NCBI GenBank assembly: GCA_015501595.1
Contig: JADNRX010000026.1
Span: forward strand, 244,679-308,678
Source of the DNA: Hymenopellis radicata
Lineage: Eukaryota; Basidiomycota; Agaricomycetes; Agaricales; Physalacriaceae
Direction of reading: 5' to 3'
Length of the DNA stretch: 64,000 nt
The translations under genes were made by a program, and so were the position numbers. Positions 1 to 18,309 of the stretch are shown here, one piece after another. The notes under the pieces are model-generated. The model did no database searches. It worked only from the letters and a program-made list of their open reading frames with translations, and was not told the DNA's origin. Position 1 is the stretch's first letter; every line of letters begins with the position of its first letter.

Positions 1-1067
1 CGGCTCTGCAATCGTTCAAGGCCATCTGGAAACGATTGGAATCCATCTACCCCGAAAGAGAGTTCAAGAGAGCCTAAGGCGAGTGGATGCCATTGGAGTC
101 CTAACAAGGCGTGTAACACTCTTATTTCAAGGTGAACGACTGATTGACTGTAGTATAGATGGGCGAATGTTACCAAGCGAAGGGTCTACAAGGTCCGAGG
201 ATCCAATGCACTCTGGCATCAAGATGGGCACGAGAAACTCAAATACTGGGGCTTCTGGGTGCACGGCTGCGTCGATGGACATTCACGCCTAATCGTTTAT
301 ATGGAGTGTCGATCAAACAAGCGCGCGGAGACTGTTCGTCAGTGTTTCCTTGCCGGAGTGGCATTATTGGGATGGCCAAGTCGTGTTCGCGGGGACTTTG
401 GGACAGAGAACAACAGCATTGAGAAGGACATGATTCTGCATTGGGGTGAAGCACACCACGCCTATCTACGAGGACGGTAAGTCATCATCCTGCTTGATGG
501 CAAGGCTAACGGGCTGATAGATCAACCCATAATGTTCGGATTGAGCGTCTTTGGGTCGATGTTCAGAAGGACTCGTTAGAGGCCTTTCGGCAGGTCTTTC
601 TCTATATGGAACAGAACGGGCTGTTTGATAAGGAAAATGCTATCCATTGCCTCTGCATATTCCTAGTCTACCAACCTCGTATCCAGGCCTCCCTGAATCG
701 TGCAAAACATGCGTGGAACCACCACAAGATTCGTACCGCTCGCAGCAAGACTCCCATTGCCATGTATGAATTGAGTCGGGAGAAACTCATTATGCTTGGT
801 GTGTGGACTGGGGATGTCGGTGATGACATCTCCTGCGTTGATGGATTCTACGGCGTTGAAGGAGCAGAACGTGAAGAGGAGGGCTTGGCTATGCCAAGGG
901 TGGATCCAAATGATCCTAATTCAGCGCTGGCAGAAGACGAGGACATTGAATCTGCGCGTGAAGCCTTAGGTGATTTTGATTTTGAGGAGGAAGATGACAA
1001 CTGGGGCATAGATGTTTATTGTAGAGCTGTAGTTCAACTGCACGCCCATGTCTGTAGTCTTAATTAG
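1..1067 (+). CDS. DDE integrase core-domain transposase, 5' partial
   Basis: The gene enters from the left edge. I read exons 2-112, 154-476 and 521-1067, joined through introns at 113-153 and 477-520; both splices keep the frame and rebuild a continuous protein of about 326 residues. The catalytic acids of the retroviral-integrase fold are visible: Asp in WHQDGH, Asp in RVRGDFGTEN, and Glu in VRIERLW, which follows a STHN sequence. This is the 'integrase core domain' family widespread in Agaricomycetes; members are thought to be transposases, though the elements they move are poorly described. The tail is acidic and ends WGIDVY plus about 17 residues. No frameshift or internal stop is present, so the copy may be functional if its 5' part outside the window is intact. 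A terminal-repeat-like sequence lies 281 nt downstream, suggesting the gene sits inside an element ending at 1379-1381. Family assignment is confident; the link to those repeats is inference. Confidence 0.85.
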
Positions 1068-1348
1068 GCATCTCAAACTGTTACCTGTGACTGAGTTGAT
1101 GGCGGGATTCGGGCTACCCTTTTTGGAGCAGCGGCGATATCTAGGGTTAGGTCCTACCATGGCCTCTTCTCACTTGCGGCTCACAAGGGAAAGTGGAATC
1201 TGACTTTACACTGAACCAGGAAAAGTCATTCCTCACTTTTAGAGAGTGAGAATGTACTTTTCCCGAAATTTTACAAAGTGTAGCAGAAATCCAGGCAAAA
1301 GTGAGAAAAGTGAGTGTAATTGAATTATTAGACAGTATATTGCCGATA

Positions 1349-1381
1349 CAACTTGGATTTTTCCCCAGCATTACCCCCATA
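1349..1381 (+). repeat. Terminal inverted repeat, right end of left element
   Basis: A 33-nt sequence ending CCCCAGCATTACCCCCATA. It recurs as a perfect reverse complement at 1519-1551, and its outer 25 bases recur in the same orientation at 4995-5019. It is preceded by several AAAAGTGAG-like repeats (about 1186-1320), typical of subterminal transposase-binding sites. It would be the right end of an element carrying the integrase gene at 1-1067; the left end is outside the window. The flank outside it reads TAAA. Confidence 0.7.
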
Positions 1382-2201
1382 AAACTAGCCATCCCAGTGA
1401 GATCGCGAGCGTAAGAAGTCCCTCTTATGAGGCATTTTTTGTTAACGACGCGTAGCCTGGTCACATTTCGAACTGCATTTTCATCACTAGTGAGGTACGA
1501 GCTAATGGAGTCTGCCTATATGGGGGTAATGCTGGGGAAAAATCCAAGTTGACTGTTTTACTACTACTATGAAGTATTCTCACTTTTAGTATAACTTTCA
1601 CTACGACTTTTGAGCCAAAATGAAAAGTGGTACAGTTCTACTTCGGAGTCCCACTTCTTCAACCAGTATCAGTTTTCCTTTCCTGTAGATTCACAATTGT
1701 CACACCACTCTTTTGGGCTGCATCCTTTGTACCTAAGTACTTAGACACTTAAGTTTAAACTAGATTTAGTAATCTTCAGTGCGCCACAACACGTAAGCTG
1801 ACCTCACGAAAAACATCAATCTCCCAGTTACTTCCCGTTGTCTGCCTCGCAATCAAAGTTCTCCTGAGTGAACAACACTCTAATGTCTTCCAAAATATCC
1901 TCGTCCCAGTCGAGCGAAACGACTTGTGATCACCGTCGACCGGTCTGCACAGTCGAAAACTTGCCTGCGAAAAATGAGAGAGCATCACCGACTCTGCTGC
2001 TGTCGTTGCTGCGACAAGTTCCGAAGCACGAAGGCCGTCAATCTGCCACTCTGATCAAAATCAAGGTTCGCGTTTGTGCCCGCCTTGAAGGAGACTACGG
2101 CCGGACCTGTCATCGAGAGTGCTGTCCAAAGGCTGTCGTAGAGAGCCTGCAGTGAAGAGCGTTGCTCCTGAGGTTGTGTTCTACCCGAGCCTCCAGGGAG
2201 A

Positions 2202-3120
2202 ATGCAATACCTGAGTGCAGTGGAGGAACCTGTTGTCGAGGCGCCTGTAGTTGAGGAGCGGTCTGTTCCAGCGCCCGTTGATGATACTCTCGCGCCAGTA
2301 CCTGTCGATGATATTTCTGCTCCTGCGCCTATTGTTGATATACAGCTCCAGCGGCTCTGGACGAAAAACCAGCACCCGTTGTTGAAGATGTGGTTGAAGA
2401 GGAGTACGCACCTGTTGCACTGCTTGACACACTCCTCTTTCTGATGAAGTCGAGCCTGTGGAGGAATTCCCAATGCGCCCATCGTCCTCGCCACAGAACA
2501 AACTGTCCCGCTCGTCCCTAAGGAGGTTATACCGGCTGTACCAGTAGAAGAGGAGACACCGATTATCCAGGAAGCACCGGTTATTGAAGATACATAGCCC
2601 TGCTGTGTCGCTAGCGGACGACGTTCTGCGCTTGAAGGGCCCGCTCCGGACCATCCACGTTTACCCGAATGCACTCCATTCAAACATTATGCGTAGACCT
2701 GTTATCAACAACCTTTATATTTGTCAACAGTTTGAGAATAGAAAACACGTACTTCCGCATGTGTATGTGCGATGAGCCTTACCCAAGGTGAAGATCGTGG
2801 AGTTCGCAATTTCCGGTCCATAATCCCTCGAACGCGACTCCGCCATCCATAGTTCTCCATCCCAGCCAGGAAACACTACGTCAACGTTGCGGCGTCCGCA
2901 GTCGTGAACCCACGTAGTTCCCCAAGTCAATGTCTCCGCCCAGATAGACATGGAGGTCCAAGATGATGTCCAAGCCTACGACGTTGCCCAGGATGAAATG
3001 GCTGCGACCAAGCCAGGGGTCGACAGAGGCAGAGGCAGAATCAGAGGTCGCCACAGAGACGACGGAACGAGGGCTGTGCTGTTGGATACCGACACCAAGG
3101 TGGACGTCGAATATGAATAG
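2202..3120 (+). pseudogene. Decayed Pro/Val/Glu-rich coding remnant inside the element
   Basis: Reading across frames on the plus strand gives successive pieces of one low-complexity style: PVVEAPVVEERSVPAPVDD, then PAPVVEDVVEEEYAPVALLD, then VPLVPKEVIPAVPVEEETP, then a piece with an RGRGRIRGR stretch ending near 3117. Each piece runs into a stop unless the frame is changed, so at least three frameshifts separate them, and no splice signals explain the changes. I do not recognise the original product; the pattern suggests a disordered acidic repeat protein. The minus strand of 1985-2683 is open, but its Ser/Thr/Gly repeats look like the shadow of this sequence. Confidence 0.35.
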
Positions 3121-3805
3121 CTACAGCCCAGTATCGGATGCCCATATCCTTAGTCGTGAGGAAAGATGTTGAGCCTTTGTAGGGAGGGTACCCGAAACCT
3201 TTTGCGGACTCAATGTTCACGCGAAATGCGGAAGAATAAGACATTTATTGCGAAAGAAGGTGGTAAATATCAAGTGAGATGGAAGCAGGCACCCGACCCA
3301 GAACCCACACCTGCGAGACGGCTCAGTCGTGAGGTTGGGAAGGCGAACCCGACAACGCACCATAGAAATGGTGTTGAGCGCTCTGGAGGGCACGTCGAGT
3401 CGTCCCAGAACCATCTTAAACAAAGGAAAGACGAGATCCTGATCTTGATCCGCTGGCCGTATCCGAGAGGAAAAGGTCGATCTGGAAAAGATCAGCAGAA
3501 ATGAACGATGGTCGGTGCGCACCGTGAAGTCAAGCTGGGAGAAATTTCCATGGGGAGCTCTACGATTACATGTCGCGCACGAAGTACCTGGAGGGCCCAT
3601 TGATGAAAGGCACTGATGGCTTTGATGACCTGATTGGTGACTTGGATGAGTTCTTCGGAGGGATACCCGAAGGACATGGACACTGACGTGTTACAAACGA
3701 GTTTGATGCAGTGGTGTGCGCGAAAATTCAAACGCTGAGCGCTGCCGCAGGATATCAGAACCAGAGTCGAGAATCGAAAGACATAGAAGGTGGCATTGTG
3801 GTTAG

Positions 3806-4122
3806 TGAAGAGACACAATCTCTGAAGTACGCGTTAGTCTCTGGACGACGTCAAGAATGGTACCTAAACATGAGACGACTGTCAACTCGGATACGACGAG
3901 GATGACAATGTACACAAGACCCACTTGGGGAGAAATAGAGAAAAGGCCGCCCTTCAAAGGGTTCTGGTTGTGACTGATGCGCGGGCGAGCCACATGAAGA
4001 GCGGCGAGCCGCACGAAGAACGCTTCGTCCTGAGTGCTGACGATGTCCACGCCACATTTGATTTGAGTATCGATAGAGATCAGAATAGTTTGGAAGATGA
4101 TGAAGGTAGCGTTGGCCCATAG
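3806..4122 (-). pseudogene. Possible membrane-protein remnant
   Basis: On the minus strand the frame is open from about 4122 to 3806. It encodes two hydrophobic segments (ATFIIFQTILISI and VGLVYIVILVVSEL) separated by a basic loop. No start codon fits well, and neighbouring minus-strand pieces at 4174-4655 lie in other frames. It could be a fragment of a multi-pass protein carried and decayed within the element, or chance. I do not recognise a family. Confidence 0.2.
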
Positions 4123-5403
4123 AGCGTCGGTCGCCTGGCAGAGGTGCTCGTTGAAGATGGGTGGCAGGCATGCTTAAAGCAAACAGAAAGGTGAGGTTGA
4201 AGCTGAAGTGATGCGGGTAGAGTCCGGCGCGGCAGTGTTCAGGGCAGGCGCCGAGGATGCCAGATCCAGTATGGCTCGAATTCGAGCACTGCTTGGTGAT
4301 AGAGACGACGATTCTTGAGAGCTGGAGGGAGGAGCAGCGACTGATGGTTGAGGATGAGGGTTGCGTCGGGGGTAATTGACGGTTACGACGTTCGCGCAGG
4401 CCATGAGAAGGGGAGAGACACTATTGTAGGCAGAGGAGGGCCATTCCCTGCTAAAGTCCAGCAGTCACATGGTGGAAGCACAGTGAATGAAAGCCACACA
4501 CCTTCAACGTTATTCTCCACCACCGCCACCACCGACAACGCCCCCAGCGAACAGCGGGGCCGCGGCTTGTGTTGACATGCTTGGTGATGGTGGTAGGTGG
4601 CAAGGCGCATTGTCACGCTCTGTGACGACGTCCGGAAGGTTCGGATGATGAGCACCAGGGCGCGCGCCGCGGGAAGACTTCGACCAGTCGAAGCACGCTT
4701 GACGTGTGTGGCGTAGCAGAATATGGTGTAACGTGATCACGTTGAAAAACACGACATAATTGATATTCAAAAATATTGTCTTAATCAAATATCTCTTTTT
4801 GGTCAACACGACACGTCGGCCGTCGGGTCATGTCGACGCGTCGTGTAACGGTCACCAGGAGGAGCGAAAGTCGTACTCGAAAGTGGGACTCACTGCGATT
4901 GAGATCAGTCCTACTTTGCACTTTCTAAAAAGTGAGATTAAAAGTAATACTTTTTGTGAACAAAAGTGACAAAGTAAGAGTAAAATCGCTCTGAATTTTT
5001 CCCCAGCATTACCCCCATATAGTTTGATTATGACTACTATGACTACTCATTCCAATATACACTAGGGACCCTGGCTGAAATACTACGACTACTGCCGAAG
5101 AACACACTCAATTTGAGACCCACGCACTTCCTTATTGGGCTCTTGTGGGCGCCTAATGACGGACGCATACGTCATGCCCGTGTGCTTCTTATGCTCGCTC
5201 TCTTATATAGAAGCGCACTCGTTGTGTCTTTCTTCCAGACCCCCACCACTCCAGCTTTCAGCGACGTGCTCCCTGGCTGACGCGGTCTTTGGCTCGAATT
5301 GCTTCGGTAATTTCTCATCCAATATCTCTGCAGGGTTCTTCTCTAACATTACTTGTAGTCTGTAGTCTCGCTCTCCATCAACAATCTATCGACGCACCTC
5401 AGT

Positions 5404-6103
5404 ATGGTCCAAACCAACGCCAAGGTCGATGCCTCACAGACCAAATTAAGCCAGTTCTTCCCGAAGAAGTCGTCGTCCTCTACCTCCTCCTCCTCCTCTA
5501 GCTCGTCCTCGTCGTCGTCTAGCTCATCATCATCGTCGTCTAGCTCATCCTCATCGTCGTCTAGCTCGACCTCCTCTAGCTCGTCGTCGTCCAGCTCATC
5601 CTCGTCGTCGTCTAGCTCGGCCTCCTCTAGCTCATTGTCGTCGTCGTCTAGCTCGACCTCCTCTAGCTCATCGTCGTCGTCGTCTAGCTCGACCTCCTCT
5701 AGCTCATCGTCGTCGTCGTCTAGCTCGACCTCCTCTAGCTCGTCGTCGTCGTCCAAGACTTCTCATAACAAACGCGCACGCGAGAGCGTCGGAGACGGCA
5801 TTTGTATTGACTTGACCTTGCTGGAGCCCGATGCGCGTCCCACGAAGAAGCCAAGGATGAAGACCACCACCACCTCCTCCTCCTCCTCCTCCTCCTCTAG
5901 CTCCTCCTCTTCCTCCTCCTCGTTGTTGGAAGCACATCGAGAAGACACATCCCGACGCTGCTAAACGATTCTACTGCCCTCTATGCCCGGGCCGCAGTTA
6001 CACGAGAAGGCATCGTTTACTGTATGTTGCCATATCCTTGCTATTTTCTTGCCCTGATCAACGGCCTAGCAAACACGACCGGAAATTTCATGGGAAGGAA
6101 TAG
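5404..6103 (+). CDS. Ser-rich protein with PIP-box and C2H2 zinc finger
   Basis: A three-exon model (5404-5803, 5901-6021, 6070-6103) gives about 184 residues. Near the N-terminus QTKLSQFF matches the PCNA-interacting PIP-box consensus (Q-x-x-hydrophobic-x-x-aromatic-aromatic), followed by PKK. About 90 residues of almost pure serine encoded by a minisatellite follow, then a basic patch (HNKRARE). After the splices, a finger reads FYCPLC...RRHRLLKHDRKFH, that is C-x2-C-x13-H-x4-H, preceded by KHIEKTH, which looks like the end of another finger. Without the first intron the frame instead runs through a SUMO-interacting-like ICIDL and a second poly-Ser tract to a stop at 5962-5964, losing the finger. 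The spliced model is inferred from donor GTATTG, acceptor CTAG and frame. A nuclear role linked to replication or repair is suggested by the PIP-box only. Confidence 0.55.
5647..5754 (+). repeat. 36-nt coding minisatellite, three copies
   Basis: The unit begins TCTAGCTCGACCTCCTCTAG and is followed by CTC plus a TCG run. It occurs in tandem at 5647, 5683 and 5719, the last with minor changes. Each unit encodes Ser with a single Thr. Flanking Ser codons (5467-5646) are a degenerate version of the same pattern. Confidence 0.9.
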
Positions 6104-6538
6104 TAACTTATCAAGAAAACCGAGGGCCCTGGAAGCCCCGCTACTACCCCATTGAAGTGTCGAAGGGCCCGGAAGTGATTCAATAACCTTCTACACCGCT
6201 ACCGACTACCTCTGGCAGCTTTGTCTGATCATCCATAATCCCAAAATCATGCAATGAAATGGTGAATAGAACTGTATTTTGCAATATAGAATAGACGCAA
6301 ATACCTACGAAGACAAATAAAATAATCTACTTTTGGCTGCGTATGAAACTGGCAGGATCCTCGGATTGTCGTAGTCAAGGTGTCGGTTGAGTCGTTGTGG
6401 ACCTGCCATGCAGTCGGAACTTCAAGCTCGGAAGGTATGTATTTTTCCCGGCTTCATCAACGTCGTGACAAGTGTCAATAAATGATATTAAAAGCTTTGA
6501 ATACAGAATGTTACACTTCTTCTCCCGACTTGCCCTCT
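6104..6538. other. Intergenic, nothing recognised
   Basis: This is the convergent 3' region between the Ser-rich protein gene and the aldo/keto reductase gene. I see no supported reading frame, RNA gene or clear repeat. Confidence 0.6.
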
Positions 6539-7982
6539 TCAGTTTGGCACGGTACCCCCCGTCGTCATATTCCAGCCAAGTTGCTTATACGTCCACCCGA
6601 ATACGGTCTGGTCGGGCTTATGATAGGTCAGCAAAGACTTGTGCATGCCAGGTTGCAGATGGATGCCGTTGATCGTCTTCATTTGGTCATCAGAAAGTGT
6701 TACAATCTGGAGGAAACATTAGTATCGCAGAGCCCTGTTAAGTTGGTGACAGAGGAACCTTGATATTCGCAGCCATCCGTTCTTCGTTCTCGCTCTTGGG
6801 CACGACAATCATTCCGAGTTGGACAGCCCAGCTGAGAACTACTTGCGCGGGTGATGCAGCCAGCTCATCGGCAACCGCTTTCACTGTTTCATCATTCATG
6901 AGAACGGGGCCACGACCTGGGAAGCTGTGGTTAGATCAGAAGAATGTCTCGAGAAACGATGTACCGAGAGGCGAATAGGCTGTTATAAGAATTCCTTTCT
7001 TCTTACAATAGTCGAGGAGCTCTTCTTGAGGAAGACACGGATGACATTCAACTTGATTGGTTGCTGGGATGATTGTGCAATGGGGGAGAAGCTCTTCGAG
7101 CAGCTTCACACCAAAGTTCGAGACGCCGATTGTCTTCACTTTGCCTGAAAGCATGTCAAGGGTTTGTGAACACCGTGGCAAAGTGTCGATTTACCTGTAG
7201 CAACCAGCTTCTCTATTTCTTTCCAAGTCTCGACGAACGTAGGCGATTCGTCTGGCTGCAAAGTGATGGTTGTTCCTGCGGGTCCTGGGAACTTATTAGA
7301 CGGAGAGATTTATGGGAGCGGGAAACTCACCGAGCGTTGTCGTCTGAGGCCAATGCATGAGGTACAGGTCGATATACTCGCAATCAAGCAGTCTTAGAGA
7401 CTCTTCAAACATCTCTTGAACCTTATCATGGTAGTTTCTTCGTGATAATAAGCCTTGCAGTACTTGAGGAGAGTTGTCCTGCACTCACGGAAGCTTTGTA
7501 GTGAGATAGATCTCGCTTCTTGGGATACCGGAATCGCGGATAGCTCTTCCGACTTCTTGTTCGTTCGCTGTGAGTAACGATAAGTGACGAACCAAATTGA
7601 ATAGTTATAAGTTCACCGTAGCCAGACGCCTAATAATGGCCATCCTTGTGTGAGGACAGCTTAATAGTCGAATGAAGAACGAGCTCACAGTATCAAAGTG
7701 ACGATAGCCTGCCTATCGATGGAGCGTCAGATAGCATTAAGACAAAAGGTACGATCTTTACCTTCAGTGCCTTCGTGCACATATCGTAGACGCGTTCCCC
7801 GCCTCCCGGACTTCCCTAAAAAAAGTTTGATCATTTGGTCTGATTAGGGAGACTAGGACTTGCCATCCAGCAGCTGGATGGACGTCAGAGCCAATTGATA
7901 GATGGACAGACATAACACACCCCATTCCAACAGAGGGAATCTTAGAACCATCGTTCAAGATGAATGAGGGGACTCTGGCCAT
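6539..7982 (-). CDS. Aldo/keto reductase, 11 exons including a 10-nt micro-exon
   Basis: NADPH-dependent reductase of the AKR superfamily, 314 residues, predicted cytosolic. Exons on the minus strand: 7982-7921, 7873-7864, 7815-7762, 7712-7689, 7629-7617, 7567-7489, 7437-7331, 7284-7195, 7144-6965, 6916-6759, 6706-6539; all phases agree. The catalytic tetrad is visible: Asp and Tyr in HFDTASGY, Lys in TTKLP, His in LMHWP. The cofactor-binding C-terminal half reads IGVSNFG, NQVECHP, AYSPLG and VVPKS. Exon 2 is only 10 nt and is needed to rebuild [18 protein letters not shown]; its downstream intron is GC-AG with the classic donor GCAAGT. Exons 4 and 5 are 24 and 13 nt. A TATA-like box lies about 40 nt upstream of the start. 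The substrate cannot be told from sequence. Confidence 0.93.
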
Positions 7983-8020
7983 ATTATCGTAAAGAGAAAC
8001 TATTTCTTGCCGACGAAGCC

Positions 8021-8028
8021 TTTATAAG
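8021..8028 (-). promoter_or_regulatory. TATA-like box of the aldo/keto reductase gene
   Basis: CTTATAAA on the minus strand, about 40 nt upstream of the start codon at 7982, in the 213-nt gap to the divergent gene at 8196. Confidence 0.45.
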
Positions 8029-8195
8029 CTATTTGGGGATCCAGACACATGACCCACCGTGACGCGTGGGATTCGCAGGTCAAGGAGAGAGTCCCGGAAG
8101 GGTTGGAAGAGCGATTTATTCTTAGTTTTGGGAGAGGAACAATCCCGGACCGTGGTGCCGGCCCGATCACTCATTTTCCTTCCACCAACACAAAA

Positions 8196-9091
8196 ATGAA
8201 GCCTGCGTACGACTCCGCCTCTGAAGAATCCGAAGACGACGCGCCGGAGGCGGTATCCCTCTCGCAATCCAAAAAGACCGTTCGAGAGCAGACCTCGGCT
8301 CTTCAACAGGCGCAGACCGCGGAAAAAGAAAAGAAACGCACAAAGAATAGGGAACGGGATCGCAAACTCAAGGAACAGGCTGCGAGCAAGAAGGGAAAAC
8401 AGGTGGCCATTGAAGAGGAGCAGGACGAGTCAGATGACGATGAAGATGCTGTTATGGCGCGTATGCGCAAAGCGATGAGGGAGGCTGAGGCGGAGAGTGA
8501 CGAGGACATGGACGACGGAGGTTCAGTTATAGACGACGACGACGACGCTATGCTGGACGATGAGAGCGACGACGACGAAGAGGAATTCCACGGATTTGAC
8601 GCCCCGGAGCGGAAAACACAGAATCCAAATCATCTTCCGGATCACCTCTTCACTTCTGCCTTTGCTTCCCAATCCAAACCCGCTCTTGCGAAAGGCAAAT
8701 CAAAAGCCCAACAGCATAAAGAGAAACAAAAGGCGAAGAAACGATTTAGAACGAAGCCGAAGGATGTCATTGTTGGGTACGGATAACACACCACTTTCGC
8801 TTGAACTGCTTGCTAACTGCCAAGTACTTGATTAGCTCTCGTGTTGTCCGGTCCTTGAAAGATAATACCACTCCGACTGGGACATCTGCGATGGTCCCTA
8901 CAGCTAAAGTGCGCAAGTTCCTTGACCGTTCGTTGGCCCTCAGGCCAAACGGTAATGCGCGAAAACGCGGTTGGGAACGACGGCCAGGTAAGTATCGATA
9001 TCAATGCAACTCGCGTGGACTTATATATTGTCCAGCGAGTGTTGGAAGCCTTAGGACTAGCGGTCCAGCGGCTCGCTTCGTTCGATCATGA
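8196..9091 (+). CDS. Probable U3 snoRNA-associated (UTP16/BUD21-like) protein
   Basis: Exons 8196-8776, 8836-8987 and 9036-9091 give 262 residues. The N-terminal two thirds are highly charged: a Lys/Arg/Glu-rich predicted coiled coil (about residues 35-70) and several Asp/Glu runs typical of nucleolar proteins. The C-terminal part is ordered, with RFRTKPKDVIVGSRVVRSLK, an AKVRKFLDRSLAL segment and a basic end. This layout resembles the fungal U3-snoRNA-associated family (yeast Bud21/Utp16), which acts in 18S rRNA processing; the assignment rests on layout and the C-terminal block, so it is moderate. I chose the ATG at 8196 rather than an in-frame ATG at 8049 because the upstream stretch is unlike the protein and lies in the short divergent promoter. 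Confidence 0.6.
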
Positions 9092-9575
9092 ACTACGTAT
9101 TCGTTGTAATTCCACGAGTGTACAAGTGTCGATTTGGCCTTGTCCCCGAGGATAGGACTGCTTACGGCGTGGCGTTGGTCTGTTAGAAATTCAGATGAAC
9201 ACCGGGACTTGGCTTCGCCTTTTCCAGTTCTGCATAGCTTAGGCAGAGGAAAAAGTATGTAGTCAATTCGAGCCAGCACGCCCTGTCGAGAGCGCTCCTG
9301 TTAGCTGTCTTAGCCCAAGTCGCACCTTGAATTCACCCCAACTTGCTCAATGCATGGATAACAGTGCCAGCGGTCACCGGGGGACGAGGGATAATGTGGC
9401 GAGAGAGGTCGACTTTTCAGGCGCCTATGGCTTGGCTTCGTCTAGAAAAACCGACCCATGAGCCGCTCTGCCAACGAAAACGAACATGCTAGAGGTAACG
9501 AAAGACATGTTTGCAAGAGGTATAAATTAGTATCATGGAGTGTCCTCATCGTATATCCTACATTCATCCCCAAGA
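9092..9575. other. Intergenic, nothing recognised
   Basis: Convergent 3' flanks of the U3-associated gene and the GT17 gene. Only short, unsupported frames are present. Confidence 0.6.
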
Positions 9576-10923
9576 TCATGCGATATCTAGATCATTAATC
9601 AGAGGCTCAATGGTGTCCAAGCCTAGGGCTTGCTGATTCCTTCGACAACCTCCCGGTAACAGGAATTTGAAGTCTTCGGCATGGTCGAGGAGATACCGAG
9701 GAAGACCGACTGCTGACTTCAACCTGTAACACCGTAAGACAGCGGTAACGCCATTCAATCGTACACTTACGGTTCAAGATGCATTTGGTTTATCAAGTCG
9801 CGGTACTGCAATGGGTATTAGATAGGTTTTCAAGACAAAGCAGCCGATTACGAACACTATACGCCTCTGGTAACATGCCGAATATATCCTTTCCAGTACA
9901 GATAGTGTCTTGGATTCGGTCAGGATCCAGCAGCTCCATTTGGCCGCCTATACGATCCGAGTGAGAAAATCCAGTCATTTTAGTGATGTATTCGGGAATG
10001 GTTTTGAAGCAGTAGCTACAATGCCAGCCCGCATCGGCTAGCATGTAGTCGCTGGTCTTCCGATGCGAATAGAATCCGTTGGAGGTCCAAAGTTGGATGC
10101 TGGCGCGCCAACTGTTGAAGCCGATGAACCATTCGAAGCTACTTGAGTGTGAGAAGCCAGGATGGCTATGCTTGATAAAGTCGGACGTACCTATAGAGAT
10201 AGTTGCGAAGTTGGAGGTGCAACGACATCCCAAAATCACAGTACTTCAACAGCTTCATGGTCGACAGCGACGGTATCTCGTCGATGTCGGACATGATTAC
10301 TAGCGACTTGGTGTTTGGATGAAACTCGATCATATGCGAGCGCAATAAGGAGGTCATTGCCCCGCGCGTCTCTGCCTCTGCCTGCCAAGCAGTCTGCCCT
10401 TCCTTCAAGGGATACCCGGGGACACTAAGAAAGCTCAATACACAGATAACACTTGTCAAAAGACGCCTCACAAACGATACGATATCTTCTTGTCAAACTG
10501 AGCGAATCGTTTCCGGTTGTTGGCGAAATAAGTCTCCTTGGCCAATCCGGTGAACGTCGCGTTGGACTCGATGATGAAGAATCTGTCCACTATTGGGCTG
10601 AGTTCATTAAGCCGTATCTCGAGCAAGTCCAATTCGCTGCTCATGAGTATGGCGTCCAGAAGCTTGTAGTCCTCAAGATTGGCCCTCGGCTTCCATCCGT
10701 GGAGCGAACACGTATGCTCGTCCAGGAGCATACCCTCTGCATAATAATGCGGTATTACATGCGTTGGTCCGTCCGCGGTATCCCATAATGGCCGTGTCCC
10801 GTAGGAAATGACATTCCGTATCTGGTAGTGGTAATGCGAGAGGACGTAGACCAAAGTTCCCGCGACGACGAGGGCGGGGATGAGGAGCGTCTTGAAGCGC
10901 TGTCGCCGAAGGACATTCGACAT
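9576..10923 (-). CDS. GT17 beta-1,4-mannosyl-glycoprotein GlcNAc-transferase-like
   Basis: Exons 10923-10472, 10424-10191, 10141-9856, 9805-9771 and 9723-9576 give 384 residues. A signal anchor (TLLIPALVVAGTLVYVL, about residues 12-28) follows a short basic cytoplasmic N-terminus, a type II Golgi topology. Family features include DAILMSSELDLLEIRLNEL, FIIESNATFTG, the acidic metal-site-like MSDIDEIPS, SSFEWFIGFNSWRAS and GWHCSYCF. Vertebrate MGAT3 of this family adds bisecting GlcNAc to N-glycans; fungal members are widespread but their acceptor is not established. About 250 nt separate it from the next gene on the same strand. The frame is intact. Confidence is high for the family, low for the exact reaction. 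Confidence 0.88.
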
Positions 10924-11175
10924 TATGGATGCGCTGTCAGTGGTAGAAGGAAAATAATGGACCCACCACCATGCAGTTCAGCATCAAGATGACGACGTGG
11001 GAGAATATCGCCACGTGGAGGGATTTGCCACCGACACTGCGGGATCTGCGCGTCTCTTTCGACGATTGGAACGCCTTCCAGAACATTGAATAGATCGTAA
11101 GTGTCATAAATATCAAACGTCGGGGTAAGTACCGTGATAATAATGTAAAGTATATAAGTTTAGTCCACCTTGTCA

Positions 11176-13084
11176 TTACGACACAGACGTCCCTCGTCCT
11201 TTTCTGTCTTTAGTTGGTGGAGGTCCAACAGACACGACGCGCAGTGGTAGGTTGCCTATCCTGTTGGCCGAGCCACCCGCGTATGGTGGCGGAGAGTCTA
11301 ACCCACTGGAGGATTCTGAATACTCCGTTGTGACTTGCGTTGAGGACTCGGTAACGTCGCGGTAATAATGAGTCGATATAGGTCTGTAAGGAGATAGTGA
11401 TATGCCAGCAGTACTGGGGGTCATGGGCATGAGTGTGGTGGTCTCATGCGGCTCTATGGAGTAGATATAAGGAGTGGCGGCTGGACCGGTTGAAAAGTCG
11501 GGCTGAGCTCCCTCCGCTGCCTTGGCTACCTTCGCGCGATGCAAACGATACAGCATGACACAGCCGATAACCAGGACGACGACGAGGGCGACCACGCCTA
11601 TGGTGATGCCTGCGATGGCACCTGCAGAAATGCCCGTAGAAGATTGCGCCCTTGGGACGAGTCCAACCGATCCTTGTGACGGACCAGAGACAGAAAAGAT
11701 CCTACAATGAGTTGAGTGAGTAGGAAGGTTTGATTCGAAAAACAGGCGTACATGTAGATAGCGGAAATGAACACGGAACCAAGAGCATACTCGGAGACAG
11801 ATGTATCGATCCATTCTTCGACGGTGCTAATGCAGTGGCCTGTCGCCGCTTGTCTTACGAGGACGGACTCGTCAAGACTGACCGCGTATCCATTGAAGGT
11901 GAATGTCAGCGTCATCTTAGCGTCACACGGGACATCCCACACATTCGTGGCAGATGTGTTTGGGTTAGGATGGGATTGGGCGCCTTGCACAGTAGAAACT
12001 GAATAATATCAGCAAGATGATTTTTATCACAGCTTGGAGAACTTACAGATGGAACGAGCTTGTGCTGATGGAAATCGCAGCGGAGCAAGGAAGGGATCGA
12101 CAATAGCATGAACTTTAGATTGCCGCAGTTGACCTCCTCCCGAACTCTGGAAAACCCAAGAGTCCATGTCAATGTAAAAATCTGCATCGCTTGCATTCGA
12201 GTTGAAGGCGGTCATCGGCAGCCATGTGATATCACCAGTAAACGCGGAGGGATCGGGTGCAAGCAAATGCATTTCACCTCCGTCAGTGGGGGAATGCGGG
12301 CCGTTGAGCGCCAAACCATATGTGAAATTCGAGCTCTCCGGATGCTGTGAGAGCCAGTTGCCAGCCAGAGTTTCATTGAACTTGCCGTCGCCTTAAATAG
12401 GGTGGTCAGTGAAACCTTATAGAGCGGAGTGGACGAGCTTACGGCCGTTTGTACCGAGACCAATGACGCCGGAGTACCCGTAGGATGGCACGATTGTTTG
12501 CGACTGATTCGCCACAATGACTGAGGAAAACATAAGGAGAAGGCAAATAGGTCATCGTTGGAAACCTACTAGACTGGTTTGCATATGCCCAAGGTGAACC
12601 GTTAGCCCTTGTGAGCTGGCAATCTTCTTTGACCAGATTACCGCTAGTAGCGCTAGACCATAGCGATACCTGCCCAGTATTCGACGTCTCTTGAACGGAA
12701 GACGAAGCGGATGGATCATATCTGAAACGATGCGGTGAATGAGAGTACTGAGAGAGCTTGCGAACACCTACGATTGCACACCACACGAATCGCAGGTGTT
12801 TCCTGCTACCATGGTATAGCCCGTCGACGTTGAGATTGAGAAGGGAAGGTTTTGGACATTAGCCCCCGAGGACTGTTAGAAAAGTAAGAATAAGCCCGTG
12901 ACCAGGCAGCGGAGGGAAGAATACGAACCATGGCAAGATTTAGCGAGTATTGTCGCACGTCGTTGACGTTCAGAGGAATTCGCACCGGCTGGACTCCTTG
13001 AGCGCGTCTGTCCAAAAGCCCTCTCTTGCTTCCAAACACCACATGACAGAAAGAAAGAAAAAGAAAAAATCGAAAAGAAAACAT
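11176..13084 (-). CDS. Membrane-anchored aspartic-protease-like (A1 fold) protein
   Basis: Seven exons (13084-12929, 12872-12772, 12721-12570, 12520-12443, 12391-12047, 11998-11752, 11701-11176) give 534 residues. A signal peptide (FSFRFFLFLSFCHVVFG) starts the protein. The ectodomain follows the pepsin fold in outline: SYGYSGVIGLGTNG, AIVDPF near residue 265, and the C-lobe ending YALGSVFISAIYM, comparable to the ILGSVFLRSVYTVFD block of A1 peptidases. The first catalytic DTG is not present (ISTSTGYTM at the expected place) and the second reads DPF rather than DTG, so proteolysis is doubtful. A transmembrane helix (AGITIGVVALVVVLVIGCVM) and a cytoplasmic tail of about 140 residues rich in Ser/Thr/Pro follow. 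Cell-surface location is inferred; function is unknown, possibly a binding or sensor protein. Confidence 0.8.
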
Positions 13085-13705: not shown

Positions 13706-16700
13706 ATGAACTCGCACAAGTCGTCTCCCTTGCGAGACAGACTTTTGTCGAACTCCCCGGACCCAATCAAGTCGTCCATTCTTCGAGAATCCGGTATGGG
13801 CTGGAATTCTCCCCCATCATCCGAGTCAAACGGCAGTGGAAACTCAGTTACCTCTCCTTTGCGACTTCAGAAACGTGACCATCCTGTTCGCCCTCCATTG
13901 CCAGAGGTCCATCGTCGCTCGTCGTCTAGCTACCGCCATGTTCGAAACAACAACCTCGTCTCGAAATCTCCATTCAAATCCCAGATACCAATGCCCTTGG
14001 GTACACCAACTCGCAGTTCTCCTCTTCCCTCCACGGTGCCGCCTCGTAAAGTGTCGGGTGAGAAGCGGGCGCGTCCATTGTCCATGCACGAACAGGCAGA
14101 GAACGAGAATGAGCGGCCGTTTGCTTTGAAGAGGGAAAGGCGACAGTCAAAGACATACCAAGGTCTTATTCAGAAGGAGCCCGTCACCAAGAGTCCATTT
14201 CGACGTGGTCTTCATTCAGATTCAGACCCTTCCAGCAGCTCCAGTTCGGATCCCCCTCCCACCTCTGAAACCGAACCACCTCTCCCTCCACTTCCTTCCT
14301 CTGATCCTGACCTTCCCGTACCCTCGCGGTCACACGTCCTTCAGTCACCCTCGAAAATCCCCACTCCAAATTCTAGGCCGCGACACCTACACGTCCATCT
14401 TTGGTATCCCGTCGCCTTCACGGTCCCCGTGCCAGTGGACGGCGTGAGCGCAGAAAAACGGTTACATGGGACGAACGTTGCGACGTCGTGGAGATCAGTT
14501 GCGGAGAAGAGGGCAGTGACGATGCGCTGGACATGGACAGTTCAGACGAGGAGCCCTCTCATCCTTTTGAAGAACACGCCGATCCATTTTTCCAAGGTGA
14601 CCAGGACGATGACCAATCGTCTGCGAATGATTCGTACGAAAGCATTGACATCCAGGCTATCGAGAACCCTTTGGAATTGGATCCAGATACCAGCATCACT
14701 GGACTGGTAGATGAAATGTTTGGCTCCCGCCACCAAAGTACTCCTCCAAGACATGGGGCGGATATACCAACTGATCTTGAGACGGAGGACGGTGTCCCTT
14801 TTGGTCGGTCTCATCATGCAGATAGAGCCGCTTACCAGCACCACGAAGCAATGTCACCTCCACCCATCCCCTTTAACCCCACGTCCACCTCCTCGCCGAT
14901 GGGTTCTTTAGACCGCATGCGTGGTTCACCGATGAATACAGGTCGTCCTCGTTCAAACTCCGATATATTGGACGATTACGAGGACGAGGACATTCAAATG
15001 TTACCAGAGTCTCCTTCCCCTGTCAAGTCACGCAGAAATACGATGCCCAGTGGTAGCCCTGTGCCACCTTTCCGCCTATCTATCGGTAAGTTTTCAATGT
15101 ACTTATGGGTTACCCTTCGATCTATATCCACTCAATAGGTTCTCCTACGGAAGACCCATATGTTCCACCATCTCTTCCAGACGAATCGTTGCCTGTCAAG
15201 GCCGACGAGAGTTTTCAGGATGAGGCGACAAATCCTGACAGTTCCTTTGCTCGGTCTGATCTGGACATAAGCGCTTTGGAGGAAGAATTGAACGTTCACC
15301 AGGTAGGAATGGTACCACTATTAGACTTCTATGCCTCTAACTCGCTTCTCATTTTAGTCTACACCCGATAAAGGACAGCCTGAGGTATCCACTACAACCG
15401 ATTCGCCGTTTTCAGTTGCTAGACGTCCACCTCTTCCCCTCACTCCATCAGCCGCTATATCTCCATTGGGCGCAGCATCTTCACCTTCTTTGCGCACGAC
15501 AAGAAGTCCAGAATCAGTCAACACCACTCCCGACCACAGAAAGCCGCGGATCAGTCTCGAGGAGCTTCAGCAACGTCTTACTCAACGACGCAGCTTCGGC
15601 AGCCCTAGTCCCGGCCCCAGTCCGCATTCTAGCTCCAGGCCGAACTTCCAGGCTGGAGATTACCTAGGCGCGCCAGGTGCTGTTAAGGACGAAGAAGAGA
15701 AGGATAGGGACACTACATCCATCATGACCGCGATGACAGACGTTAGCGCCATCAGTGCCGAAACCGCTACTATTATGAGGGCCGAAAAGCACATTGTTGA
15801 CGTTGCCGTAGCAGTTGTCGAATCGTCTCGCGAAGACCCTGCTGCAGATTCGGAATTTGGCATGTTGAAGGCGGATGACAGTCATCGATTGAAGTTCGAT
15901 TTCGGGAGCAAGTTCGGTCGTGGTCTAGGGTTCGAACAGTTGGATTCCGCCGATGAGACTGGCTCCGGCAGCCCTCTTTTGTCTGTGAAGACTTCCCTTC
16001 CTTTAGAAAGCAGCAGCATGCAATGTGACCCTTCCGCGGACACTAACAGCATCGCACGAACCGAGATCTCCTCTGTCGACGTCGACATGGACATGCGAAG
16101 CGCTCTCGACAGACTCATGGACGATGTGTCGAGCCACCGACTCGAACCCAGGGACATAACAATGTCGACGGAAGACGGGGATGAGTCGTTAGAACGCCTC
16201 CAAGACGAGGAACCCATGGACGAACCTGCCATTCCTCGTATAATGGAGCGTGCGGCAACCGATTCAGCCATCATCATAAATGCGCCACCAAATGGGTTAC
16301 TCAGTCGCAGCGCCAGTGGGGCTTCCAGCACTACCATCCCACCTCCAGTCCCACCTAAGGATAACATTCGCAACCGCGAGGCCCTCATTCTAGAGAAGAG
16401 ACGGGAGATGAGACGACTCGAGGAAGAAGACGAAGCTGCTTTTTATGGTCGCCCACCTCCGAGAGCGGAGCATCTTGCAGTTTCTTCTGGACGCCCTAGT
16501 CGCAGAAGGAGCAGGAGCACAGGTGATGTGGATGACGTTAGGGTTGGTACGAAGCGTTACACAACTGGAGGTCTGCTGGATATCGGACCATTATCACCGC
16601 AAGATGACGACCCTCTCGGAGATAGTATTGAAAAAGAACTTCGAAAACTGGAAGCCCCGCAGAAGAGTGTAAGTCAAGTTCACATTACTGTATTACCTCC

Positions 16701-18309
16701 AATTAACCTCGCGTTCGTAGAAATACCAGGTCCGACAGCATGTGGAAACTATATATGCGTCGTCGGACAACAATGTGTCGCATGCAGGTGATCTCAACAC
16801 CGGAAGGGCCTGGAAAACCGTCAGAAGACCGTCAGATATGGTACGCTTGAACCACTAGCCTCTATATGATTTCTGACGTGGCACATTCAGAACGAGTACT
16901 CCAAGCAGATCAAAGAATACCGCGCACAAGAAAAACCAGGCAAGGCGTATGGCAAAGTGTTTGTGAAAGGTCTGTGTCCCGTTCAACCGTTCAATCAATC
17001 TCTTATCTTCTTGTAGTTTTGGGTTTGAAGGGTATCTCAACACCAATGCCCCAAGAACCGACCGCGGTGTCCTGTACACTCAACAATGGTATTCATTTCG
17101 TCACGACGCCAGAGTGCAGGTTCAGTCCTGATTGTGCGATCAATCAAGAGTTTGAACTGTAGGTTGCCTCTTGCCTTGCCGATTATTTTGAATGTAATGC
17201 TAATTTTCATTGTAGTATCGAACACAGTAAATTGGAGTTCACGTTGACTCTGAAAATTCGGCGAGATCCTCATATTATCTCCCAATTCAAGGCACTGGCG
17301 CCTCCTCCTGCTGCGCCAATTGCACCACCACCTGTCGTCCACACCTCCTCAAAGAGCGGGATGCGAAGTTTCTTCTCCTCTTCTCCTAAAAAATCGAAGG
17401 AAAAGTTGAAGGCCCAAGCACCCCCCGCGCAGCCTGCACAGCCTGTACATCGTCTGCCCGAAAATCTTGCTCGATATCTGAAGCCAGATGGCACACTGGC
17501 GCGTGCTTTCATCTCTTTCAAGGACGTGGCACAACGATGTGATACACGGATCTTCGAGACGGCTTTCCCGCTCATTGGACAGAAGTTGGAAGCTGGTAAT
17601 AAGTCGACGACCGCCCAGGTCGGCGAGATGGTATTGCAGATTTTCCGACTACCGCCACTACCAGGCATTGCACCCGACCAACTACCGCAAAGTCTGGAAG
17701 AATGCCATCGTGGGCTGCGACATATCAATTGGCATAAGGTCACCTACTTCGAAGGCACTCTTACTCAAAGTGGGGGTGACTGTTTGGTATGTTATGTTGA
17801 GCTGGTATGAGTTGTTGTGACTGATATGCATGCAGACCTGGCGGCGTCGACAATTGAGGGTGATTGGTTCCAACTTGGTCGCGTTCAACGATGTCACGAA
17901 AAAGGCTACGGCTACCATCAGCCTCAAGAAGGCCATCACAGTTGAAGACGACAAGGCTGTACGCGACGCGGCTATGAGTCCAGCGTCTGCGTCGACTTCG
18001 AGAAGTCGATACGCCGACGACTACGATGGAATGTATGGAGTCGAACGTTCGTTTAGACTCGTGTTTCCCGACGAAGAGATTATCTTCTTCGCTGACACGG
18101 ACGAAGAGAAGGAGAAATGGTAAGTGTCGTTTCAACCTCGCCTGCGACGCGTCTGGATTCATTGTTCATCTAGGTTGGAAGTTCTACGCGCATTGGTAGG
18201 GCATATTCCCCCGCATCCCTTATGGGCGGAATTGCTCTGGCAGAGGGCGGAGGAGATGGCGAAGGCCAATCGCAGGACATCGACCGTCCCGAAGAAGGGA
18301 CCCGTGTAG
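13706..18309 (+). CDS. BUD4: BUD4/anillin-like septation protein with C-terminal PH domain
   Basis: Ten exons (13706-14317, 14377-15085, 15139-15302, 15358-16668, 16721-16840, 16891-16969, 17017-17158, 17216-17786, 17836-18119, 18174-18309) give 1375 residues. The first half is disordered, rich in Ser/Pro and acidic stretches with many SP/TP sites, as expected of a cell-cycle-kinase substrate. Near the C-terminus is the anillin/Bud4 C2-like region (VFVKVLGLKGISTPMP, TTPECRFSPDCAINQEFEL, LEFTLTLKIRRDPHI), then a PH domain (KVTYFEGTLTQSGGDCLTW to LVFPDEEIIFFADTDEEKEKW, with the conserved Trp) ending at HPLWAELLWQRAEEMAK. Bud4/Mid1-type anillins organise septins and the cytokinetic ring; this role is inferred by homology. 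The intron at 14318-14376 has a weak donor (GTACCC), but the frame demands a splice there. The frame is otherwise intact over 4.1 kb of coding sequence. Confidence 0.92.

Follow-up and report, generated by a model that had tools for sequence, protein, structure and literature searches.

Transposons of the IS3EU superfamily are described as always having TA..TA termini and usually producing 6-bp target-site duplications (TSDs) (PMC10045372). IS3EU elements carrying a TET gene (TET+) are described from rusts (Pucciniales; 6-bp TSD, TAYGG..CCRTA, terminal inverted repeats [TIRs] of >30 bp) and from Tuber indicum, with the TET gene between the transposase gene and an alpha-kinase gene; the TET+ elements named for Agaricomycetes in the text of the same paper are Kyakuja, Zisupton, EnSpm, Plavaka, and Helitron2 (PMC12730594). 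Among mushrooms, IS3EU has been named in Ganoderma (PMC8955403), in Phlebopus (PMC12411881), and, as MarorIS3EU-2, in Marasmius oreades (PMC9674265). Here, we report a transposon family of the agaric Hymenopellis radicata (GenBank assembly GCA_015501595.1), termed the TGGGGG family after its ends, which very probably belongs to IS3EU. Its ends came to light in a 64,000-nt stretch, the window, of contig JADNRX010000026.1 (C585; positions 244,679 to 308,678, forward strand), for which an original prediction had proposed an undescribed TIR family acting through an integrase gene that enters from the left.

The text of PMC12730594 does not mention Hymenopellis, and among the papers listed for IS3EU, fungal GingerRoot elements, and the H. 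radicata genome, none is recognizable by its title and abstract as a description of these elements; Repbase, most subscription papers, and the PMC12730594 supplements lie outside the scope of this search.

Ends, target sites, and gene content of the TGGGGG family

The 17-mer TGGGGGTAATGCTGGGG occurs exactly at window positions 1363-1379 (− strand), 1521-1537 (+ strand), and 5001-5017 (− strand), the three places where a terminus had been predicted; a shuffled window is expected to yield 0.08 matches even with up to 3 mismatches. Each repeat extends beyond the length first given, with positions 1349-1381 and 1519-1551 sharing 33 nt at 100% identity, and positions 1516-1546 and 4992-5022 sharing 31 nt at 97% (a count that includes 3 flanking bases). 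Throughout the genome (75.5 Mb), 28 exact 17-nt ends were found, and 41 with up to 2 mismatches (reversed-pattern control, 5). TA stands directly before every one of the 28 exact ends, all of which read TATGG. The ends share an outer repeat, TGGGGGTAATGCTGGGGAAAAATYCA, and inward of it split into two kinds, A (n = 14) and B (n = 14), so that the family termini are TATGGGGG..CCCCCATA, with a common outer TIR of ~28 nt and differing inner ends. Exact ends face each other at 9 places (C485, C585 in the window, C729, C792, C852, C892, C956, C1162, and C1362), each time an A end paired with a B end.

Exact 6-bp TSDs, lying beyond the TA, enclose 8 of these 9 closed pairs (AAAGTT, TGATCT, CGAGTG, TGACCG, CTACTT, GATATG, AAGCTA, and ATGTCG); the ninth, copy X of the window, has the unequal flanks TGCCTA and TAGTTT, and a tenth element with a damaged B end (C629) has TGCTTC at both flanks. 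For an empty-site search, each of the 8 sites with TSDs was rebuilt from its joined flanks with a single 6-bp copy and searched against the genome. Related uninterrupted sequences were found for 5 of them (C729, C792, C852, C892, and C956), evidently because these insertions sit in repeats. Exactly one 6-bp copy and no added TA were present in 7 of the 9 empty sites fetched (two for C729, three for C852, and two for C956); of the remaining two, the C892 site has one extra base, and the C792 sequence (75% identical) is diverged at the site. The TA is therefore the element's own end, and the target is 6 bp. A TA or TATA target, with one TATA expected at empty sites, had been predicted and is rejected on these grounds. 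TATA does flank both sides of 1521-5017 as stated, but the end at 1363-1379 is flanked by TAAAAC, and the TATA is the element's TA plus chance neighboring bases. In Tc1/mariner transposons, the TA target is duplicated upon insertion; TGGGGG elements are alike in having TA beside every end and unlike in that this TA is part of the element.

A full copy of 11,515 bp (C852:60617-72131) carries three genes: the integrase (~286-1883 from the A end, − strand, read in the direction of that end), gene 2 on the integrase strand and upstream of the integrase (~1959-5506), and gene 3 (~8317-11245, + strand, read toward the B end). A simple splicing script, guided by homology to C956/C752, produced the gene models, whose 5′ ends are uncertain. 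The integrase model has a DD34E triad and matches PF24764 (E = 1.9e-60), with a subthreshold match to PF00665; its match to the NCBIfam IS481 transposase has an E value of 3.6e-6 but 26.7 bits, far under the cutoff of 224. The expectation that full-length copies hold an integrase between inverted termini is supported. Blocks of C545, C1008, C629, and C264 are 95 to 99.7% identical to C852, so the spread of the family looks recent. At 4 of the 14 A ends (C852, C629, C1008, and C264, the last with an inserted stretch), a long PF24764 gene comes next to the A subterminal region, the A end of C1 has the 3′ part of an integrase at the contig edge, and short integrase remnants lie near the A ends of C729, C892, C956, C1162, and C1362, which makes 10 of 14 A ends with integrase sequence. 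Many mushrooms have PF24764 integrases, whose names give no more than the domain; the domain label can now be joined to a classified transposon with defined ends, 6-bp TSDs, empty sites, and a frequent partner gene. One Mycena sanguinolenta integrase (P0001) is publicly named “Ethylene-and jasmonate-responsive plant defensin,” evidently a misannotation.

In our view, the TGGGGG ends very probably mark out a family of cut-and-paste DNA transposons within the IS3EU superfamily. The placement rests on ends of the TA..TA form, TSDs of 6 bp, and a transposase resembling IS481, matched to published descriptions, and by the same features the elements fit a kind already described rather than an undescribed one (PMC10045372, PMC12730594). 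They share with IS3EU/GingerRoot (Repbase IS3EU) the TA..TA termini, the 6-bp TSD, TAYGG-type ends, and a DDE transposase with a weak IS481 match; they differ from described IS3EU in having gene 2, which lacks a Pfam match, on the integrase strand, and in the strong dissimilarity of their A and B inner ends. Several points weigh against this reading. The TIR, at ~28 to 31 nt, barely reaches or falls short of the >30 bp stated for rust IS3EU; two sister elements (TATCGG and C956-nested, below) have B ends that start TTTGG and not TATGG, so TA..TA is not universal; copy X lacks a matching TSD; and 3 of the 14 A ends (C485, C792, and copy X) have no trace of integrase at E ≤ 1e-3. A fourth A end without its own integrase alongside belongs to the interrupted copy Y.

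The companion gene, the putative dioxygenase, and sister lineages

Gene 2 matches lie on at least 18 contigs, and on at least 14 of these, a PF24764 match follows downstream on the same strand; the gene 2 and PF24764 lists score best candidates only, and the counts are lower bounds. Of the other gene 2 contigs, two (C545 and C445) are truncated at the contig end, and two (C1237 and C1080) have no PF24764 match downstream. Gene 2 thus looks like a frequent, perhaps constant, partner of the integrase. It has no Pfam match, its annotated protein P0056 has no NCBIfam match, and in a word-limited search (7,995 candidates), every homologue at E ≤ 1e-3 came from H. radicata. Its C terminus, YHPDKN, recalls a J domain by eye, with no profile match.

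Gene 3 gave 51 matches on 8 contigs, each with gene 2 matches as well. At E ≤ 1e-3, a homologue search returned one match, P0055 (the H. radicata C1008 gene 3), whose public gene model lacks ~10 residues of the most conserved last exon. By match coordinates, that exon is shorter by one base on C1008 and C445 than on C852 and C545, and the annotation of P0055 may step over a frameshift. Between C852 and C956, the last exon is 81% identical, with a low ratio of nonsynonymous to synonymous substitution rates (dN/dS) of 0.038; an integrase block of the same two copies also has a low dN/dS, 0.07 (dS, 2.8 to 2.9 and near saturation in both comparisons).

We lean toward reading gene 3 as a TET/JBP-like 2-oxoglutarate-Fe(II) (2OG-Fe(II)) dioxygenase, a moderately confident assignment made from sequence. 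Single gene 3 exons match Pfam Tet_JBP weakly (E = 0.075 and 0.059), with the two copies, 81% identical, aligned to the same profile positions (76-161). In an alignment with CcTet and a genomic TET-like open reading frame (ORF), the N, the HxD, two G, the second His, and the C-terminal His line up, and the hhalign score of 16.1 is above the 95% point of 300 shuffles (15.2). The competing reading, that gene 3 encodes a 2OG-Fe(II) oxygenase of a different kind, or an unrelated protein in which the motif arose by chance, and has a different role in the element, is a serious possibility that we hold to be somewhat doubtful. It draws on the weakness of all these matches, on an hhalign score below the shuffle maximum (20.8), and on the Arg expected after the second His, which is off by one column in the CcTet alignment. 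Neither the full gene 3 model nor P0055 has a Pfam match, and a Tet_JBP search of the genome gave no match at gene 3. When the exon profile was searched against PDB sequences, it matched only beta-trefoil proteins (E ≥ 0.05) and no TET. AlphaFold models of the gene 3 exon have mean predicted local distance difference test (pLDDT) values of 47 and 36, both <50, the second model, with the TET-like ORF added to the alignment, being the less confident; a fold search gave no meaningful match, and the models are too poor for use. The Tet_JBP genome search did return three ORFs elsewhere (C391:74374, C1362:47510, and C699:30915; E, ~2e-4, under the cutoff), of which the C1362 ORF matches CcTet at 2e-7 and is the TET-like ORF of the alignment above.

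If gene 3 is taken as TET/JBP-like, the elements resemble the TET+ IS3EU of Pucciniales and Tuber indicum in carrying such a gene, here putative, and differ from them in the agaric host, in an HxD motif rather than the HxE of the PE type, in the position of gene 3 (opposed to the integrase, at the opposite end, with gene 2 between), and in the lack of an alpha-kinase match among the three C852 gene models. Kyakuja- and Plavaka-type DNA transposons of mushrooms are alike in having a TET/JBP-type gene; they have other transposase classes, other ends, and TSDs of 7 bp (Kyakuja) or 2 to 3 bp (Plavaka), in contrast to 6 bp here.

Related integrases lie in sister elements with other ends, A ends being TATGG or TATCG. 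A closed 9,063-bp element (C863:147501-156563; ends TATGGGCGGCATAGTGGGG and TATGGGTGTGATTGTGGGG; TSD, TATATG) has the integrase and gene 2, and the part examined gave no gene 3 match at E ≤ 1. Within the TGGGGG copy of C956, an 11,882-bp nested element (E956 631-12512; TSD, CAAACG) has TATGGGCGG ends and all three genes. The 19.5-kb C956 copy was consequently dropped as a diverged autonomous TGGGGG element, as its integrase, gene 2, and gene 3 lie in this nested element. A relative on C752 is 96 to 99% identical to the nested element in integrase and gene 2 blocks and 78 to 92% in gene 3 blocks, and has an A end of the same kind; a search for its other end found none. The fourth lineage, a 14,787-bp element with TATCGG ends that reaches into the window (below), also encodes a gene 2 relative, with no gene 3 match at E ≤ 0.01. 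Gene 3 is accordingly present in 2 of 4 lineages, TGGGGG and C956-nested/C752, and not in TATCGG or C863. Downstream of other PF24764 copies, a recognizable TAYGG end was found with the probe used in 7 of 29 stretches; the other 22 may have diverged or other ends. The outer TGGGGG element of C956 also contains a 3.3-kb insert (E956 14998-18272) with 215-bp direct terminal repeats (98.6% identical), probably a long terminal repeat (LTR) retrotransposon.

From these comparisons, the integrase would cut A and B ends and join both to a 6-bp staggered cut, and would move nonautonomous copies in trans; window 1519-5019 is one of the family's deletion derivatives. Gene 2 would act as a core helper, and gene 3, as a TET/JBP-like 2OG-Fe(II) dioxygenase, would relieve transposon silencing by DNA methylation. 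We are evenly divided on the broader proposal that mushroom IS3EU comprises a two-gene core (the integrase and a YHPDKN-tailed companion for which no description was found) plus, in 2 of 4 lineages, an HxD-type TET/JBP-like demethylating dioxygenase; the elements would then be TET+ IS3EU of Agaricomycetes, independent of the published rust and truffle captures. Should gene 3 truly be TET/JBP, it would mark another transposon lineage armed against silencing, an idea that the near-identical copies within this single genome would make testable.

Nested and paired elements in the window

Copy X (1519-5019, 3,501 bp) is an internally deleted, nonautonomous TGGGGG element. Its A end (1519-1551, + strand, TATGGGGGTAATGCTGGGGAAAAATCCAAGTTG) and B end (4992-5019, − strand) agree in 27 of the outer 28 nt and diverge further inward. 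Three of its blocks share 84 to 91% identity with the outer TGGGGG element of C956; 10 of the longest reading frames in it lack a Pfam match (E ≤ 0.1), and it has no integrase match at E ≤ 1e-3. Copy Y (C585:208525-246059) contains three large inserts, one of which has severed the outermost 33 nt of its A end (window 1349-1381, − strand) from its body.

Copies X and Y are inverted, 137 bp apart, and 100% identical (rounded) in three blocks, with one mismatch in a 492-nt A-side piece and none in a 635-nt B-side piece. Their flanks are exchanged: TGCCTA at the A end of copy X (1513-1518) is the reverse complement of TAGGCA at the B end of copy Y (C585:208519-208524), and AAACTA at the A end of copy Y (1382-1387) is the reverse complement of TAGTTT at the B end of copy X (5020-5025). 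Inverting the spacer in silico yields two perfect TSDs, TAGGCA..TAGGCA and TAGTTT..TAGTTT. The simplest cause is a 137-bp spacer flipped by inverted-repeat recombination, or a misassembly. Hybrid-end (alternative) transposition, in which a transposase paired ends of the two elements and inverted the spacer, would equally suit near-identical, inverted copies 137 bp apart and the TSDs restored by un-flipping; we consider it unlikely, since fewer assumptions are needed if the inverted repeats simply recombined or if the assembler made the flip at a 3.5-kb repeat.

The integrase gene that enters the window from the left was predicted correctly as a spliced DDE gene. The exon with the catalytic D and D (154-476, + strand; PF24764) joins cleanly across a 44-nt GT-AG intron (477-520, + strand) to the last exon (521-1067, + strand; stop codon, 1065-1067), which holds the catalytic E, with 34 residues between it and the second D; its PF24764 matches have E values of 5.1e-31 and 1.6e-24. 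A terminus lies 281 nt past the stop, at position 1348, and it belongs to a different element. Close integrase copies on C484 and C865 are like the window up to exactly 1348 and are followed by different DNA, and the terminus there (1321-1348, − strand, TATCGGCAATATACTGTCTAATAATTCA) has 3 exact genome copies and 3 more with 2 mismatches. An insertion ending at 1348 should have its other end, and a repeat of CAACTT (1349-1354), where copy Y breaks off; both were found, delimiting a 14,787-bp insert (C585:231240-246026) with CAACTT on both sides and the ends TATCGG and TTTGG. By the breakpoint, the TSD, and the terminus copies, window 1-1348 (+ strand) is the right-hand part of this separate IS3EU-type element.

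The window integrase gene thus sits in an element nested within copy Y, 33 bp in from the A end of that copy; its product belongs to the same group as the TGGGGG integrase, as a diverged member with TATCGG ends. The adjacency of gene and end in the window results from the nested insertion and not from an enzyme-substrate pairing. Two same-kind elements nested 33 bp from a terminus here resemble one gene beside its own end. The predicted TIR family exists, and its full copies carry a PF24764 integrase, but the window gene belongs elsewhere; several integrase copies do lie in elements with other ends, an outcome that the original prediction had named as refuting it. The TGGGGG family still owns a related integrase. 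That the window integrase acts on the adjoining TGGGGG ends and inserts at TA/TATA like a Tc1/mariner-type element is very unlikely, for although related integrases lie inside TGGGGG elements, TA precedes every exact end, and cross-mobilization between sister lineages is possible, the enzyme is of the PF24764/IS481-like kind, the 6-bp TSDs lie outside the TA, empty sites lack the TA, and the breakpoint at 1348 and TSD CAACTT give the gene a terminus of its own and reject it as owner of the TGGGGG end.

Copy Y is further split by inserts of ~8.9 kb (C585:221803-230747) and 10.3 kb (C585:209170-219457). The latter ends in TATGGGCAATATACTGTCTAAAAATTCA, an IS3EU-like terminus that recurs at C585:207966-207993 and on C1007. 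To the right of copy X, window 5466-5771 holds an array of CTCGTCGTC/TAGCTC-type units at 15- and 21-nt spacing.

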